From Clostridiales bacterium Firm_14 (GTDB lineage: Bacteria; Bacillota; Clostridia; Saccharofermentanales; Saccharofermentanaceae), in contig LVAT01000010.1 in NCBI GenBank assembly GCA_001604135.1, forward strand, positions 62,001-126,000: a stretch of 64,000 nucleotides of DNA, given 5' to 3'. Below are positions 904 through 33,523 of this stretch, piece by piece (positions within the stretch are counted from its first letter, which is position 1; each line of letters begins with the position of its first letter). The notes under the pieces were generated by a model, which ran no database searches, was not told the origin of the DNA, and saw only the letters and a program-made list of their open reading frames with translations. The position numbers and the translations under genes are program-made.

Positions 904-1350
904 AAAGGAAAGCATACTAACTGCCTTCAAAAATGCCATTAGGTGGGCTTTTTGTCTGCCGAGTTGGAGTTTGCAGCCCACTTGGAACAGTATTTTGAGC
1001 GGTTTAGTGGGCTTTTCGAGTCCTTGTGAAAGGAATTCTTCTGTGATAAGCCCACTTGGAGGGTCAAAAACGACTTCTAAGTGGGCTCTTTGCTTAGGCC
1101 GCTCGTTAAACAAGCCCACCCGGAGGTCCAAAATCAACCATTAGGTGGGCTTTTGCAGTTGCGAATCCCAAAATACCTACCTGAAGGGCAAAATCGCGTT
1201 TCAGGTAGGTAAATTATGAGCGCCACCGTCGCGGAAATACCTACTTGGAAGCTAAAAACACATTCGAAGTAGGTAAATCAGCTTTTTCGAGACTTCAAAA
1301 ACAAGAAAAAATACCTACCTAAAGGGCAAAAATCAAGTCCAGGTAGGTAT
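904..1350. repeat. Inverted-repeat array A (seven hairpins, two stem types)
   Basis: This gene-free stretch holds seven hairpin units. One degenerate copy ends at 950, three have AGCCCACYT/ARGTGGGCT stems (975-1013, 1049-1087, 1113-1151) and three have TACCTACYT/ARGTAGGTA stems (1174-1211, 1238-1275, 1311-1350). Each unit is 38-40 nt. The loops share an A-rich core of the form GGNNNAAAAA. Left arms often follow A residues and right arms precede T residues, so each unit looks like a bidirectional terminator. Linkers are 21-35 nt. Small open frames overlapping this stretch are by-products of the repeats. Confidence 0.85.
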
Positions 1351-1404
1351 TTTGCGAGCATGCAAAAACTCAGGAAGAACCACCAGTGCGCAAAAGAACA
1401 TTTA

Positions 1405-6234: not shown

Positions 6235-7427
6235 CCTTCAATCCTCAACATTTCGACCGGTGATTTCTTATATTCAAATGCAAAGAACGCCAGATTGACC
6301 AGTATGTATGCGCCAAGAAGGATTCCTGACACAGACAAGACGGTCTTCAGATCCAGAATATAAACGCCGTTCGACATCGCCTTTATCCATGGGTTGTATT
6401 TATAAATTGCAATGCCCGTGACAAGGCCTGCAAGAACAGTCGGAAGATATGAAAAACATGCGGTCAGGCACACATACAGCCACGCTCCGCCGTTAAGATA
6501 GTAGATGACCAGTTCGTTCTTCCTCAATGACAGCTGTATCAGCGTGTAAGCGATCAGAAGTTCCAATGTGACTATTGCCGATGCTATTGCTACCGCCTTA
6601 AAGACAACGGCATTATCGCTGTCAGCGTCATACAGCATATCGCGGTAGTCTTCATATGTGTAAGCGGTTCCGCGTCCGGCAACTTTAAGCACCTGCGGTT
6701 TTATATCGCTTACCGTGTAGCCGTCTGCCGGATGTACGATCATGATATCCCTGTTGCCGCCCGCATTATCAGGCACGATTACACTATAAGTAAACGCATT
6801 CGCGTAGGCTCCGAGACTGCTTTCGATCTCACAGAAATAACTGTCGCCAAAAAGCGCTCTGGAGTTGATATCGAAGAACCCTGATACCTTGAACCGGTAT
6901 TCCTCATCAGGGTTCCTGACATTATTCATAACTAACGTGTCACCGATATTGCATCTGCCAATGTAATTGCTCGAAATGCAGATCTCTTCAGGCGCACCGG
7001 GATCCGGAGCCCTGCCTTTTACGATACGCCAAGGAAAACCCTTCAGATCCATAGGAAGCTGCTCAGCAGTCAGATAAAAGGGATTTCCTTCCAAAGAACG
7101 CTCCCTGTTTACAAGAACATTCCCATAAGTATATGTCTCATACTCAGCCCCTGATACACAATCAAGATGGTTAATGCGGTCAAGAAGTTCTTCCGGCTCA
7201 TTGCTCTCCCCTGAATCGATCCTTATATAATCGGCCATCGAATACATTGGAGAATATACCAACGACTCATCAAGCCCATATGCTTTGTACGCCTTTACAC
7301 CTTGAAACGCGCTGACATAATAGCTTGAGATACAAAAGATACCAAGCACGGTTACAGCCGCATATAAGACCAAGGTAATGGTGTGACTAAGAATATGTTC
7401 AGATAGATTTTTAAAAAACAATTTCAT
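6231..7427 (-). CDS. FtsX-type half permease, about 398 aa
   Basis: A helix at about residues 15-40 is followed by a large extracellular domain (about 230 residues) and three C-terminal helices, ending FEYKKSPVEMLRIEG, which is the typical P-x-x-x-L/I-R end of FtsX permeases. The start is uncertain: TTG at 7445 and ATG at 7427 are in frame and neither has a convincing ribosome-binding site; ATG is chosen. The extracellular part contains a G-R-A-P-D-P-G-A-P-E-E-I stretch of the MacB periplasmic core type. It lies 37-55 nt downstream of the bacteriocin-like gene and overlaps the next permease gene. Role: export of, or protection against, the peptide (inference). Confidence 0.8.
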   Translation of the reverse strand: MKLFFKNLSEHILSHTITLVLYAAVTVLGIFCISSYYVSAFQGVKAYKAYGLDESLVYSPMYSMADYIRIDSGESNEPEELLDRINHLDCVSGAEYETYTYGNVLVNRERSLEGNPFYLTAEQLPMDLKGFPWRIVKGRAPDPGAPEEICISSNYIGRCNIGDTLVMNNVRNPDEEYRFKVSGFFDINSRALFGDSYFCEIESSLGAYANAFTYSVIVPDNAGGNRDIMIVHPADGYTVSDIKPQVLKVAGRGTAYTYEDYRDMLYDADSDNAVVFKAVAIASAIVTLELLIAYTLIQLSLRKNELVIYYLNGGAWLYVCLTACFSYLPTVLAGLVTGIAIYKYNPWIKAMSNGVYILDLKTVLSVSGILLGAYILVNLAFFAFEYKKSPVEMLRIEG

Positions 7428-7832: not shown

Positions 7833-8273
7833 ATAAACCTCCCCAAAACTATAGCAATTCCACTATGTGTGAAGCATTCCATAAATAACAGATTGACATT
7901 TCATTACTGCTAAGCCATTACACATACCGCTGCTTTCTTTGCACGTTTCACAACAATATGCTGCGGCTTGTTTTTAACTGAAGCTTGACTTGTCTGTTGG
8001 TATATTCCCCGACAAAATGCAATGGAAAAATCCTTCAGAGAATCTCCCCATGTCATTTATGTTTGGAAATAATTATTCCTTACGGAACACATTTGAAAAT
8101 GCCAGCTACTAAGGTAGCTAACCCTGTCTGTTCTCCCTTTGCAATCCCCACAGCAAAGGGTATACCTTCTATCGAGAATCATTCTAACACTCCGGATTTT
8201 GGGTGACAAGTTTATTGGATTTTTGCCGTTTGTGGGTGTTCATCTATAACTTTCAGATAACAAAATAACGCCC
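7833..8273. other. Gene-poor intergenic stretch with scattered small hairpins
   Basis: No convincing gene is present. Several short inverted repeats are visible: ATTCCTTACGGAA around 8076, AGCTACTAAGGTAGCT around 8104, and CCCTTTGC/GCAAAGGG around 8137-8161. The promoter for the bacteriocin-like operon must lie near 7845-7900 on the minus strand; TATAGT about 17 nt before the GGGGAGG site is a possible -10. The short open frames in this stretch lack ribosome-binding sites and could be the remains of a decayed gene. Confidence 0.4.
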
Positions 8274-8461
8274 GCCCACTTGATGGTGGATAAAATGGCA
8301 TTTAGTGGGCTTTTTATAAATTGACAACACAGAGGTTTTCCCAAAAAGCCCACCCAGATGCGTCAAAAACAGGTTTAGGTGGGCTTTTCGCAATCAAACA
8401 ACACGAAGTATTCAAAAAAAAGCCCACTTAGAAGTCTAAAAAACAGGACTAGGTGGGCTTT
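8274..8461. repeat. Inverted-repeat array B (three hairpins, GCCCACYT stem)
   Basis: Three units share the stem of array A: 8274-8310, 8344-8388 and 8418-8461, the latter two extended by A4/T4 pairing. Loops again carry an A-rich core (GTCAAAAACAGG, GTCTAAAAAACAGG). The array sits directly downstream of the ABC exporter gene whose stop is at 8489, so on the minus strand it may end that transcript. It is about 7 kb from array A and uses the same stem, whereas the other arrays use different stems. Confidence 0.85.
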
Positions 8462-26436: not shown

Positions 26437-26592
26437 TCGTTCCGCCCGTACTTTTTGCACGTTTTCACCTGATTCTGTCCATAATTAATGGAAGTATTCG
26501 GCAATAAAGTATACTGCCCTTTTATATATTTGCTTTGAATCTAAGAGTATCATTGACCTGAAAAACAGGCCCTGCCTGATATGAGGATTCAA

Positions 26593-27990
26593 ATGGAAAG
26601 CGCTGTCAGCAAAAGAAACACAGTCATAATCGATGAGAAGACGCCTTTGATGTTACTGGCGGGACCGATGTTTCTCGAAATGTTCCTGACTACACTGGTC
26701 AATAACATCGATACGCTGATGCTGAGCCACTACGACGAATATGCCGTAGGCGCAGTCGGCAATGCGAACACCATCATGTTCATGATGAACATTCTTTTCA
26801 ACGTCATCGCGACAGCTACGAGCGTTGTTGTCTCGCAGTATCTCGGCGCGAAGCGTTACGACAAGATGAACATGATCTACACGCTTGCCATCATGGTAAA
26901 TCTCGTTGTCGGCGTCGTCTTAAGCGCAACATTCTGCGCTGCAAATCCGCTCATAATGAAATTCCTTCACGTGTCTGACGAGATGCGCCCGTACTCGATG
27001 ATCTACATCTACATCGTCGGCGGCGGCGGATTCATAATGGCTGTATATAATGTTATGCTCCAGATCTTAAGGTGCAACGGACACCCTAAGATCGGCATGT
27101 ACGTAACGCTTGCGATCAACGTTATTAATATCGGCGGAAACTACCTGTTCCTCTACGGACCTCTCGCACCGCTCAACATGGGCGTTGCAGGCGTTGCGAT
27201 CTCTACTGTTGTCTCAAGAACATTCGGTTTGATCGCTGTTTTCGTATTCTTCTTCAGAAAGAAGATCGGTAAGATCGCGCCTAAATATTTGAGACCTTTC
27301 CCTACCAGGCTCCTTGGCAAGATGGTCAAGATCGGCCTTCCTACCGCAGGCGAGAACCTAACATACAACCTCTACCAGACAACGCTTCTCTCGTTCGTTA
27401 ACGCGATGGGAAATGACGCCGTCTGCGCAAGAGCTTACTGCAACACGCTCATATCGCTCGCGATAATCTTCTCGAACGCATGTGCCATGTCGACGCAGAT
27501 CATCACGGGTCACTTAGTCGGCGCGGGCAAAGAGGAAGCTGCGTATAAGAGAGTATTCAGAACGCTTAGGACATCGATGCCTATCACGATCATGCTGGTA
27601 TCACTCAATGCTATCTTCTGCAGATACACGCTGCAGCTTTTCACGCAGAATGAGAACATCATCGCTCTTGGCCAGATGATCATGATCGTTGATATCTTCA
27701 TTGAGATCGGCAGATGCCTTAACATGACATTCGTCTGCAGCCTCAAAGCTGCCGGCGCTTATATATTCCCGCTTATCATGGGACTTCTGTGCAACTGGGG
27801 CCTGGGCCTTACGACAGGCTGGCTCGTCGGCGTTTACATGGGTGTCGGCGTGGCAGGCATCTTCGCCGGAACCGCTACGGACGAATGCATAAGAGGACTC
27901 ATTGTCATGTACTACTGGTACAAGAAGAAATGGGTCGGAAAATCCGTCGTCGAGAAACGTAAGAAGAACGTGCTGGAAGAGGCTGAGTGA
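26593..27990 (+). CDS. MATE-family efflux transporter (first copy), 465 aa
   Basis: The start at 26593 (MESAVSKRNTVIIDEKTPLM) has GAGG 6 nt upstream; the ATG at 26581 does not. Twelve membrane helices in two equivalent halves can be traced, beginning LAGPMFLEMFLTTLVNNIDT, where the polar N-x-x-D segment typical of the first helix is present. The family exports cationic drugs or metabolites in exchange for Na+ or H+. The DinF/NorM subgroup cannot be decided by eye. Transcription ends in a 279-nt gap filled by inverted-repeat array C. Confidence 0.9.
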   Translation: MESAVSKRNTVIIDEKTPLMLLAGPMFLEMFLTTLVNNIDTLMLSHYDEYAVGAVGNANTIMFMMNILFNVIATATSVVVSQYLGAKRYDKMNMIYTLAIMVNLVVGVVLSATFCAANPLIMKFLHVSDEMRPYSMIYIYIVGGGGFIMAVYNVMLQILRCNGHPKIGMYVTLAINVINIGGNYLFLYGPLAPLNMGVAGVAISTVVSRTFGLIAVFVFFFRKKIGKIAPKYLRPFPTRLLGKMVKIGLPTAGENLTYNLYQTTLLSFVNAMGNDAVCARAYCNTLISLAIIFSNACAMSTQIITGHLVGAGKEEAAYKRVFRTLRTSMPITIMLVSLNAIFCRYTLQLFTQNENIIALGQMIMIVDIFIEIGRCLNMTFVCSLKAAGAYIFPLIMGLLCNWGLGLTTGWLVGVYMGVGVAGIFAGTATDECIRGLIVMYYWYKKKWVGKSVVEKRKKNVLEEAE

Positions 27991-28029
27991 TTATCCGGTT
28001 GGAAGTGACGCCGGGGTGATATTGGCGTT

Positions 28030-28223
28030 GTATCTCAAATCTTCGAAAACATGGATTTTGAGACACATTTTTCTGCCAAAAGTATCTCAAATCATCAGAA
28101 GCTGAGCTGTTGAGATACATTTTTCGAGCTGTTGTATCTCAAACACCAACAAAGCACATAGATGAGATACAGATCTGGTGCAGATTGTATCTCAAACACT
28201 TCAAAAATGCGGATTTAAGATAC
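28030..28223. repeat. Inverted-repeat array C (four hairpins, GTATCTCAAA stem, period 52-53)
   Basis: Four units of exactly 37 nt start at 28030, 28082, 28134 and 28187. Each begins GTATCTCAAA and ends with its complement (TTTGAGATAC, with one mismatch in units 1 and 4). Linkers are 15, 15 and 16 nt, and two of them share ATTTTTC at the start. Loops of units 1 and 4 share CTTCNAAAA and GGAT. The array fills the gap between convergent genes (MATE, ending 27990, and the 241-aa membrane protein, ending 28270). Confidence 0.9.
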
Positions 28224-28269
28224 ACGGGCATCAGAAAGACGTTGACGCTCAAATATTTCCCCCAAAATC

Positions 28270-28995
28270 TCAGTACGACGCGCCGACATTGATATCTTCG
28301 ACCGCAAGCTCCATCAGTCCATTTGATTCTAGATGCTGTACGACCTGTTCGTAAAACTCTGCGGTACCGCCGTCTGCTATGCCTTCGAACGTGGTCTCGA
28401 TCGTGCCATCGAACCTGTCGGGATCAAAGAGAATATCCATATACAAGTGCTGCTCGATATCGTCATTGATCTCCCTCATGCGGTCGAAAGAGATGACGTA
28501 ATGCATCTTATCGTCGAAGAAGTACTTCTCCTTCTTAATGTGCACGGTGTAAGTCTCATCTGGAAGCGCCATGTCCGCAATGTCTTTCTTGTACAGTTCG
28601 AAGACCTCACTGACGGTCTTTGCTTCGGACGCTTCGTGCCTCAGATCATGCGCTTTCTCACTGTAGAGATCTTCTTTATCAGGCTTGCCCTTGGTGGAAT
28701 TCTCATCGCCGTAAGCATCCTCGTTCTGGGCGGCCTGAAGGATCAGGTTGAACATCTCCCGGCTCCCCTTAAGCCTGACCGTCTTTATCGCAAAAAAGAT
28801 CGAGATTATGAAGTCAATTACAAGCAGGACCACACCGATAATGAGGCATTCCCGTCTGAATATTCCGGCGATTAAAAAGACCACAGCGCCCAGGAACAGG
28901 TAGATAAATGACCTGAAAAAATACACGGCAAATATAATGAGCCTGAATTTCCATTTGCTTACCGGCGGCTTGGTTTTCTTGTTCTGATCTTCCAT
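28270..28995 (-). CDS. Two-helix membrane protein, 241 aa
   Basis: ATG at 28995 (MEDQNKKTKPPVSKWKFRLI) is chosen because AAGGA lies 8 nt upstream and a -10 (TATAAT) is at about 29033; the frame continues farther upstream only as the antisense of the neighbouring MATE gene. Helices at about residues 19-42 and 46-68 are followed by a cytosolic region of 170 residues, with a Lys/Glu-rich segment and a C-terminal beta domain (YTVHIKKEKYFFDDKMHYVI, then SFDRMREINDDI). A YcxB-like membrane protein is possible. No enzymatic motif is seen. Confidence 0.75.
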   Translation of the reverse strand: MEDQNKKTKPPVSKWKFRLIIFAVYFFRSFIYLFLGAVVFLIAGIFRRECLIIGVVLLVIDFIISIFFAIKTVRLKGSREMFNLILQAAQNEDAYGDENSTKGKPDKEDLYSEKAHDLRHEASEAKTVSEVFELYKKDIADMALPDETYTVHIKKEKYFFDDKMHYVISFDRMREINDDIEQHLYMDILFDPDRFDGTIETTFEGIADGGTAEFYEQVVQHLESNGLMELAVEDINVGASY

Positions 28996-29057
28996 CCTCT
29001 TATTCCTTAAAACTGGTGTCGGTAATAAGATTATAACATCTTGAAGACGGCCGGCTA

Positions 29058-30416
29058 TTACTGCTCTTCTTTGGGGAGCTTCGCGAAAAAACTGACCGTG
29101 AACGGTATGCAGATGAGGCTTGTCATGACGTCGGCAACTGCCTGCGCGATCTGGATTCCAGTAAGGCCCCAGACAAAGCTGAAGAGCAGAAGGACCGGAA
29201 TGAAGCACAGACCGTTTCTTAAGGACGACAGGAAGGTCGCATTGAACTTATAGCCGATGCTCTGGAACATCATGTTGTTGCACACCTGGAAAGGCACGAT
29301 AAACAGCGCTAAGCACTGAGCATGAAGCGCCGGTATGCCGATCATGATTACTTCCGGATCGTCCCTGAAGAACTGAATGCAATTTCCTGCGTTAAAGTAG
29401 ACGGCCATTGACGCGATGCCGAGCGAGATCGTTCCGAAGATAAGCGTGAAGAAGAAACCCTGACGGACGCGGGAATACTTTTTCGCGCCATAGTTAAAGC
29501 CAGCGATGGGCTGGAATCCCTGTCCGATGCCCAGGACGGCGCTGAAGATAAACATGCTGATCCTGTTTACGATGCTCATTGCTGCGATCGCCGCATCGCC
29601 GTACGCGCCTGCCGCGTTGTTGAGAAGCATCGTTGAAATGCTCGCAAGGCCTTGTCTTGCAAGGCTCGGAAGACCCGTAGTTATGATGTCTCCTAAGATC
29701 GAGAGCTTGAATCTCGCATACTTGGGATTAAGAGATGTCTGTGTCTTCTTGAGGATGAACATCGTGAGCAGCAAAGCCCATGAAATGTACTGTGATATCG
29801 CGGTCGCAAGGCCCGCGCCGAATATGCCCAAGCCCATCTTCTGCATGAAGAGCATGTCCAGGAAGATGTTGAGGATGCCGCCTGACGTAAGGCCGATCAT
29901 GGCAAAGAACGCGCGGCCTTCGTATCTTAGGATGTTGTTCATTACGCAGCTTGATACGAGCGCCGGTGCGGCCGCGAGAATGCAGATGGCATAAGTTCTC
30001 GCATAAGGAAGGATCGTGTCGGTGCTGCCGAGAAGCCTCATGAGCGGCGTGACGAAAAGTCCGCCGAAAATGAGGAAGAAGAATCCCGCTATGAGCGCAG
30101 AATAAAAGCCCGTCGCCGCGATCGTTCTCGCGTTCTCGACGTCTTTCTGCCCTAACTTCCTGCTGATGATGCTTCCGGAACCGTGACCGAACATGAAGCC
30201 TACTGCCTGAAGTATGGCCATGAGGCCCAATACGACGCCGGTGGCGCCGCTCGCGGACGTGTTGATCTGACCTACAAAGTAGGAGTCCGCCATGTTATAT
30301 ATGCTCGTTACGAACATGCTGACCATAGTCGGCAGGCCGAGCTGGATGATCAGGCTCGGAACGGGCTTGGCGGTCATCATCTCATATTGTGATCTATACT
30401 TCCCCTTAAAAGGCAT
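29058..30416 (-). CDS. MATE-family efflux transporter (second copy), 452 aa
   Basis: The N-terminus (MTAKPVPSLIIQLGLPTMVS, then MFVTSIYNMADSYFVGQINT) is the classical MATE first-helix signature with N-M-A-D-S-Y-F-V-G, close to MepA/DinF-like proteins. Twelve helices follow, with the second repeat beginning near TTGLPSLARQGLASISTMLL. A second helpful marker is the FGHGSGSIISRKLGQKD loop. The ribosome-binding site is poor (AGAGAA). TATAAT at about 30456 (minus) is a possible -10. Substrates cannot be told from sequence. Confidence 0.9.
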   Translation of the reverse strand: MPFKGKYRSQYEMMTAKPVPSLIIQLGLPTMVSMFVTSIYNMADSYFVGQINTSASGATGVVLGLMAILQAVGFMFGHGSGSIISRKLGQKDVENARTIAATGFYSALIAGFFFLIFGGLFVTPLMRLLGSTDTILPYARTYAICILAAAPALVSSCVMNNILRYEGRAFFAMIGLTSGGILNIFLDMLFMQKMGLGIFGAGLATAISQYISWALLLTMFILKKTQTSLNPKYARFKLSILGDIITTGLPSLARQGLASISTMLLNNAAGAYGDAAIAAMSIVNRISMFIFSAVLGIGQGFQPIAGFNYGAKKYSRVRQGFFFTLIFGTISLGIASMAVYFNAGNCIQFFRDDPEVIMIGIPALHAQCLALFIVPFQVCNNMMFQSIGYKFNATFLSSLRNGLCFIPVLLLFSFVWGLTGIQIAQAVADVMTSLICIPFTVSFFAKLPKEEQ

Positions 30417-33301: not shown

Positions 33302-33523
33302 CTTTTTAGTATGCTTCAGGAGCTGTTTTGCCAAGGCAACAGACAAATCACCTTCTATTCTTCGGTTTTGTCTGTAATTTTCATGCTTCAGCCACCATTT
33401 TCTCGGAAAAACACAGACAAAACGCTCTCTATTCCTTGGTTTTGTCTGTAATTCCCGTGCTTCAGGCACCATTTTCGCGAAAAAATACAGACAAAACTGC
33501 CTTTTCCGGATGATTTCGTATGA
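33302..33523. repeat. Inverted-repeat array D (74-nt tandem unit, ACAGACAAAA stem)
   Basis: Hairpins of 37 nt occur at 33339-33375 and 33413-33449, with ACAGACAAA(A) pairing to TTTTGTCTGT; a third left arm begins at 33487 but its right arm at about 33514-33523 is degraded. Units start exactly 74 nt apart. The 37-nt linkers are themselves conserved (TGCTTCAG-CACCATTTTC-CG-AAAAA) and contain two mini-hairpins (GTGC/GCAC and TTTTCGCGAAAA). A partial linker precedes the first hairpin (33302-33338). The array lies between the convergent channel and zinc-ribbon genes. Confidence 0.88.

Follow-up and report, generated by a model that had tools for sequence, protein, structure and literature searches.

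What are four evenly spaced palindromes doing in the gap between two converging genes? The window, by which we mean the whole stretch of 64,000 nucleotides analysed, belongs to contig C10 of a 3.12-Mb genome (G000) of a rumen bacterium, closest among named organisms to Saccharofermentans and other rumen Clostridia. It carries on the plus strand a group of four 37-nt palindromic units, array C, at 28030..28066, 28082..28118, 28134..28170 and 28187..28223. Re-reading of the sequence confirmed the unit starts, the length of 37 nt and the linkers of 15–16 nt given in a preliminary description of this DNA, with a period of 52–53. Unit 1 (GTATCTCAAA ... TTTGAGACAC) was recovered by a pattern match at G000:C10:90030, and units 2 to 4 by sequence reading and pattern match. 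The stem described as common to the array holds for the shared arm GTATCTCAAA but not for the right arms, which differ among the units (TTTGAGACAC, GTTGAGATAC, GATGAGATAC and TTTAAGATAC). The flanking ORFs, 26581..27990 on the plus strand and 28270..29208 on the minus strand, agree with the earlier placement of the array between two convergent genes. The left neighbour is, by reading and from its relatives, a putative MATE-type transporter; the right neighbour is without a Pfam match. Rfam gave no match in the 64-kb window. A degenerate unit pattern allowing at most 3 mismatches produced 59 matches per strand in the whole genome, against 9 for the reversed control. Array C is real and not due to chance.

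Further arrays, all listed on the plus strand, are found in the window. Array A (911..1151, arm AGCCCACYT) has units at 911 (decayed), 975, 1049 and 1113, with spacings of 64, 74 and 64. Array B (1173..1352, arm ATACCTACYT) has three units spaced by 64 and 74 and no secure partner gene, and array D (33339..33523, arm ACAGACAAA) has two good units and a decayed one, with a spacing of 74. That A, B, C and D are arrays of one build with differing stems, as had been claimed, is borne out. Array E (8273..8459; three units, the arm of array A, spacing 74) is a fifth array, absent from the preliminary list.

The arm of array C recurs far from this locus. In G000, the GTATCTC arm is present in 11 arrays and 46 units, array C included; the ten further arrays are located on C7, C9 (two), C10, C12, C13, C16, C18 and C20 (two), and the arrays have four units each, except one with six. 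The arm consensus of the 46 units is GTRTCTYAAA: positions 2, 4, 5 and 6 are invariant in 92/92 arms, with A or G at position 3 and C or T at position 7. The strict GTATCTC pattern was found 24 times in its own genome, once in G013, twice in G018 and never in the other 82 of 85 genomes, the arm being almost private to the species of G000. A series of GTATCWYAAA units is visible in G018 (L146:1500-1800, L147), with no gene of the partner family (see below) inside the 3 kb examined.

Two earlier proposals on the origin of the arrays need revision. The stem is not specific to each place, since GTATCTC is used by 11 arrays of G000. Because stems are not confined to one place, local tandem duplication alone is insufficient as an origin: the arm is dispersed genome-wide, and C12:3541 is a diverged copy of the whole module of array C, 77% alike and alignable over all four units. 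The identities between the two are 68/80 in the arms, 46/68 in the loops and 34/46 in the linkers, and the similarity falls off in the flanks. At the same gene junction of two relatives, L019 (transporter 98% identical) and L021, the array is absent. Such missing clusters at syntenic places had been taken as a sign of coincidence, yet the family is real, because its arrays are dispersed. Concerted change of the stem at one syntenic place was rejected, L019 and L021 having no array there.

Arrays of relatives have unrelated arms and the same build, with 36–39-nt units, a central A-tract, and spacings near 52, 63, 73.5 and 104. A detector of neighbouring like-stemmed hairpins, with no preferred spacing between 38 and 130, returned 165 pairs from 147 loci (2.71 Mb). 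The 31 arm families yielded 39 spacings with a best period of 10.6 bp (R 0.79; 2000 uniform sets reach at most 0.58), a count that holds one spurious 59 and the GTATCTC family split in two; after removal of both, R was 0.82 (n = 37). Seven arrays were dropped before this count and the centre profile: L018:18306 (a 66-nt array), L061:11403 and L033:7918 (tandem copies), L081 and L074 (coding-like pairs), and L017:5100 and L122:8775 (mis-framed). The repeats at L018:18306-18476, three in number and nearly identical, have a period of 66 nt and are CRISPR-like or another kind of tandem repeat. The means of the spacing classes, with held-out values pooled in, are 51.99, 62.67, 73.53 and 104.25, corresponding to a slope of 10.56 per turn. 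A period of 10.6 bp matches the pitch of B-DNA.

The lattice was found again in a held-out set of 36 of 40 stretches (720 kb of other DNA of the genus; four were excluded for overlap with earlier loci). It contained 42 like-stemmed pairs, against 0 in two dinucleotide shuffles. With nothing removed, the spacings gave R 0.54 (p = 0.007, n = 17), and R 0.70 (p = 0.0006, n = 15) without 59 and 67, judged to be frame slips; off-lattice values in this set included 44.5, 58, 59 and 67. In two related four-unit arrays, L079:2758-2984 and 7096-7331, whose likeness reaches into the right flank, a gap of 9 nt in a single linker turns 53 into 62, as expected if indels preserve phase. At the centre of the 148 units profiled, A occupies positions 18 and 19 in 70% and 80%, against at most 54% in the loop-shuffle control. 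Of the 19 arrays that have at least three clearly oriented units, 8 mix the directions of their A-tracts and 11 keep one direction throughout (3.9 expected), indicating that orientation is not free.

A 301-aa ORF (the C9 paralogue), flanked on either side by nearly identical TGTTGCC arrays, led to a gene family with a paralogue beside the C7 GTATCTC array. Searching other stretches with a model of five G000 paralogues recovered six further ORFs, of which four lie near listed arrays. The family occurs in 84/85 genomes of the genus, in 1–15 copies (ten-row alignment A4). An array lies at most 500 bp upstream of 46/76 distinct full-length copies and downstream of 1/76; if the six copies that led to the family are excluded, the upstream count is 42/70. 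Random windows contain an array in 8/2000 cases, and other genes of at least 250 aa have one upstream in 7/764 and downstream in 18/788. A coarser earlier count gave arrays at 19/30 family loci versus 28/400 windows. The first spacings before the 46 array-bearing genes fall on the same lattice (R 0.88). By the detector, 30/76 family genes have no array; probable units were seen by eye before three detector-negative genes (L214/L240, L237/L241 and L166/L246). In a sample of 291 genomes of the class, 16 genomes outside the genus have family members. Clear multi-unit upstream arrays, with spacings of 52–54, 63–64 or 74–75.5, accompany 9 of the 38 copies read from such genomes (L312, L313, L333, L334, L335, L337, L342, L345 and L348, several being mutually orthologous), and most of the 38 have no array visible upstream. 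The preliminary description was right about the common build of the family, and missed the spacing rule and the partner gene.

Several other features were noted around these genes. A further palindrome, TTGAGACTAGTCTCAA (GAGACTAGTCTC), is common to 14/110 upstream regions of the family (e.g. L157:1831 and L214:15303), mostly 100–127 nt before the start codon. An ORF that reads as reverse-transcriptase-like adjoins the C22:84633 paralogue in G000 and the same gene in G005 (seen in the right half of L237 and the left part of L214), with CTATCTY as the arm in one and CTATCGCA in the other. At L214:15168-15255, an array unit (CTATCGCAT ... ATGCGATAG) is apparently interrupted in the middle by a palindromic insert of ~40–50 nt. 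GC-rich AGGCGGCGCCTG/AATTCCGCC repeats occur at L120:15200-15560 and L238:1250-1420, one set being downstream of the C13 paralogue.

The partner protein has about 262 residues, the N-terminal half being more variable. Residues S154, E157, E174, D191, G209 and Y216 are kept in 110/110 copies, E206 in 109 and K155 in 108, and the protein shows the E ... D ... E/K active-site pattern of the PD-(D/E)XK nuclease superfamily. The position of the usual ExK lysine is occupied by C, L or F, and K155 may replace this lysine. Pfam, NCBIfam and solved structures searched by sequence gave no credible match for the family. The PADLOC model PDC-S68 (PDLC05065, candidate defence) matched 10/10 A4 members, with a best E of 1.3e-28, A4 member 1 aligning to the last ~118 of 1221 positions; PADLOC HEAT_CxxC_PDDEXK matched 2/10 and the PHROG Holliday junction resolvase 3/10. 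Unlike PDC-S68, the partner stands alone, with its own N-terminal half and without a helicase-size partner domain. We take the partner to contain a putative PD-(D/E)XK nuclease domain, and our guess is that the N-terminal half reads DNA. The family was not found in viral contigs. A viral origin was rejected, the two pattern hits in viral contigs being single matches in coding-like stretches with no array; plasmids gave no match.

Three arm types of the window each pair with a different paralogue. The gene C7:110925 (G000:C7:110925-111713) has just upstream a four-unit GTATCTC array with the same arm as array C. Upstream of C7:75970 lies the arm AGCCCACTT, with spacings of 73/74/64; it matches arrays A and E, being identical in arm and similar in spacings to array A. 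The arm upstream of C22:54584, ACAGACAA, and its spacing of 74 are those of array D. Genome-wide, AGCCCACTT has 16 pattern matches versus 0 for the control, and ACAGACAA 12 versus 3. G005 (with three arm types), G019 and G069 likewise show gene-arm pairs. On a hand-made arm list, in which one match, ACCTACCT, is loose and the paralogues are only partly sampled, 9/23 dispersed arm types have a counterpart among the gene-linked arms of the same genome, versus 28/702 comparisons across genomes; the other 14/23 arm types have no matching gene-linked arm among the sampled paralogues. Furthermore, arm similarity rises with protein identity (58 copies, Mantel r 0.33, reached by 0/5000 permutations), a correlation that is partly expected from the physical linkage of a gene and its upstream array.

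Array C thus probably consists of four duplex-DNA sites for the PD-(D/E)XK-nuclease-like product of C7:110925, in a system made of an operator and its dispersed copies. The protein, as a dimer or in a higher-order assembly, would contact the two arms of ~7–10 bp across the A-tract. Neighbouring units would be on one helix face, 5, 6, 7 or 10 turns apart, and several bound units would form one ordered complex. The array before a gene would be the operator of that gene, allowing autoregulation, and dispersed arrays such as C would be copies that proliferated in intergenic DNA, chiefly in gaps between convergent genes, and that are kept or spread by binding, and possibly nicking, by the same protein. 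Each genome would have several gene-arm pairs with diverging specificities, which would account for a constant build with varying arms. The arm family, helical spacing, A-tract, lack of arm covariation (see below), gene-array linkage, arm matching and active-site-like residues were computed; binding, cooperation, autoregulation, cutting and the beneficiary, host or element, are what we infer from them. Protein-binding sites were among the functions first suggested, and we judge by inference that this option was right.

The conserved active-site-like residues in 110 copies could also belong to a selfish pair. Gene and upstream array would then be a mobile or homing element whose nuclease targets the palindromes (in duplex, cruciform or single-stranded hairpin form), binding would serve spread and not regulation, and dispersed arrays would be deletion derivatives of the element. 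This is consistent with the copying of whole array modules, the empty site of array C in two relatives, the position of most arrays in intergenic gaps, where insertion is harmless, and the C9 paralogue flanked on both sides by nearly identical arrays. We consider it unlikely, because most copies have diverged loops and linkers but kept arms, which points to continuing selection on the arms; moreover, the left neighbour of the C22 paralogue is, by reading, shared between G000 and G005.

Upstream position, helical spacing and palindromic sites are equally features of operators bound by ordinary transcription factors, in which case the nuclease-like gene would be just one regulated target of each; the additional palindrome GAGACTAGTCTC before family genes is also as found in operators. 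We hold this to be improbable. Arrays occupy 18 convergent, 16 tandem and 5 divergent gaps, versus 27/110/58 for array-free gaps, in a count that relied on a crude ORF picker (the convergent gap of array C was called tandem) and omits six of the seven dropped arrays, keeping L033. The 28 non-family flanking proteins among 30 scanned have no common function, and the arm types travel with the nuclease-like gene family and not with a regulator family.

RNA hairpin arrays or terminators formed in 3′-end transcripts are very unlikely. Single units of array C are foldable (plus strand −3.9 to −13.8, minus strand −8.5 to −12.0 kcal/mol), arrays are enriched at convergent ends, and T-runs stand at the end of the units in arrays A and E, so that these two arrays may also act as terminators. 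However, joint change of the arms within arrays, as first suggested, is not seen inside the GTATCTC units: among the 46 units, the arms match at 164/230 variable positions versus 170.1 after shuffling, and both arms are off consensus in 4 units versus 6.6 expected, fewer but not significantly so. The other arm families, counted with L079:12690 additionally dropped, gave 157 matches versus 151.6 (fraction at or above 0.17, not significant). No terminator-like site (G+C-rich stem followed by a T-run) was detected in 27950–28300, which covers array C only, in keeping with the earlier view that these are not plain terminators. RNA gives no reason for a lattice with the pitch of DNA, and the tract at the centre can be A or T. 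Given arms that do not covary, an array C that shows no terminator and A-tracts running in either orientation, sites on duplex DNA fit better than RNA hairpins. Neither coincidence nor a partnerless local tandem duplication under concerted evolution is tenable: although some arrays outside the set are recent tandem copies (L061, L079:12690), the arms are dispersed, the shuffles empty and the arrays gene-linked.

Arrays read as duplex sites of a nuclease-like partner resemble several known systems in part. REP/BIME elements with RAYT (TnpA-REP) are described as short extragenic palindromes that fall into several families per genome, sort by species and often follow genes; a single-domain gene of nuclease type is dedicated to them and has its own repeats on its flanks (PMC3733652, PMC2817692, PMC8266576, PMC3116915). 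Array C shares with them the short extragenic palindrome in many copies (46 units of 37 nt in 11 arrays). Unlike REP/RAYT, the partner is PD-(D/E)XK-like and not a Y1 HUH transposase, the units of 36–39 nt have a central A-tract, 2–6 or more of them form an array on a 10.6-bp lattice, and the array is upstream of the gene. A RAYT was rejected as partner, G000 having none: Y1_Tnp (PF01797) gave 0 matches in G000, and the control was found in 5/14 reference genomes. No GTAG/CGTC tag at the palindrome foot was found beside the four units of array C.

RIP, or BIME-1, consists of inverted REPs around an IHF site, with a bend-prone centre. The inverted arms around a bend-prone centre are common to both; the arms here are, unlike REP hairpins, simple half-sites of 7–10 bp, and the central tract is only ~4–5 bp. 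Helix-phased operator arrays of autoregulated DNA-binding proteins likewise have upstream sites at whole helical turns, but not the many dispersed copies in convergent gaps or a nuclease-like protein. CRISPR had been set aside from the start, and we agree: there are no near-identical direct repeats with unique spacers of equal length, the arms alone are kept, loops and linkers have diverged, and the arms alternate in direction. No description of such arrays or of the gene link was found in the literature, with subscription papers and preprints outside coverage.

The system does not fit a known family, for it lacks features that define REP/RAYT, CRISPR, terminators and structured RNAs; given its similar working, it could be argued to be a variant of the REP/RAYT kind. 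At somewhat less than an even chance, the arrays represent a new repeat-protein class in Clostridia, in which fast-diversifying nuclease-like proteins would each recognise a helix-phased palindrome array of their own, regulate the gene encoding them through it and give rise to dozens more arrays across the chromosome; such a class would be the duplex-DNA equivalent of REP/RAYT, its sequence specificity free to evolve anew. If this is true, a gene family found in almost all genomes of a common genus of the rumen would gain a function-bearing partner, and a layer of the intergenic DNA of this genus would be explained. The natural gene-arm pairs would then allow the recognition code of a nuclease-like DNA-binding protein to be read, and one could test whether palindrome families specific to a species can arise without the REP/RAYT machinery.
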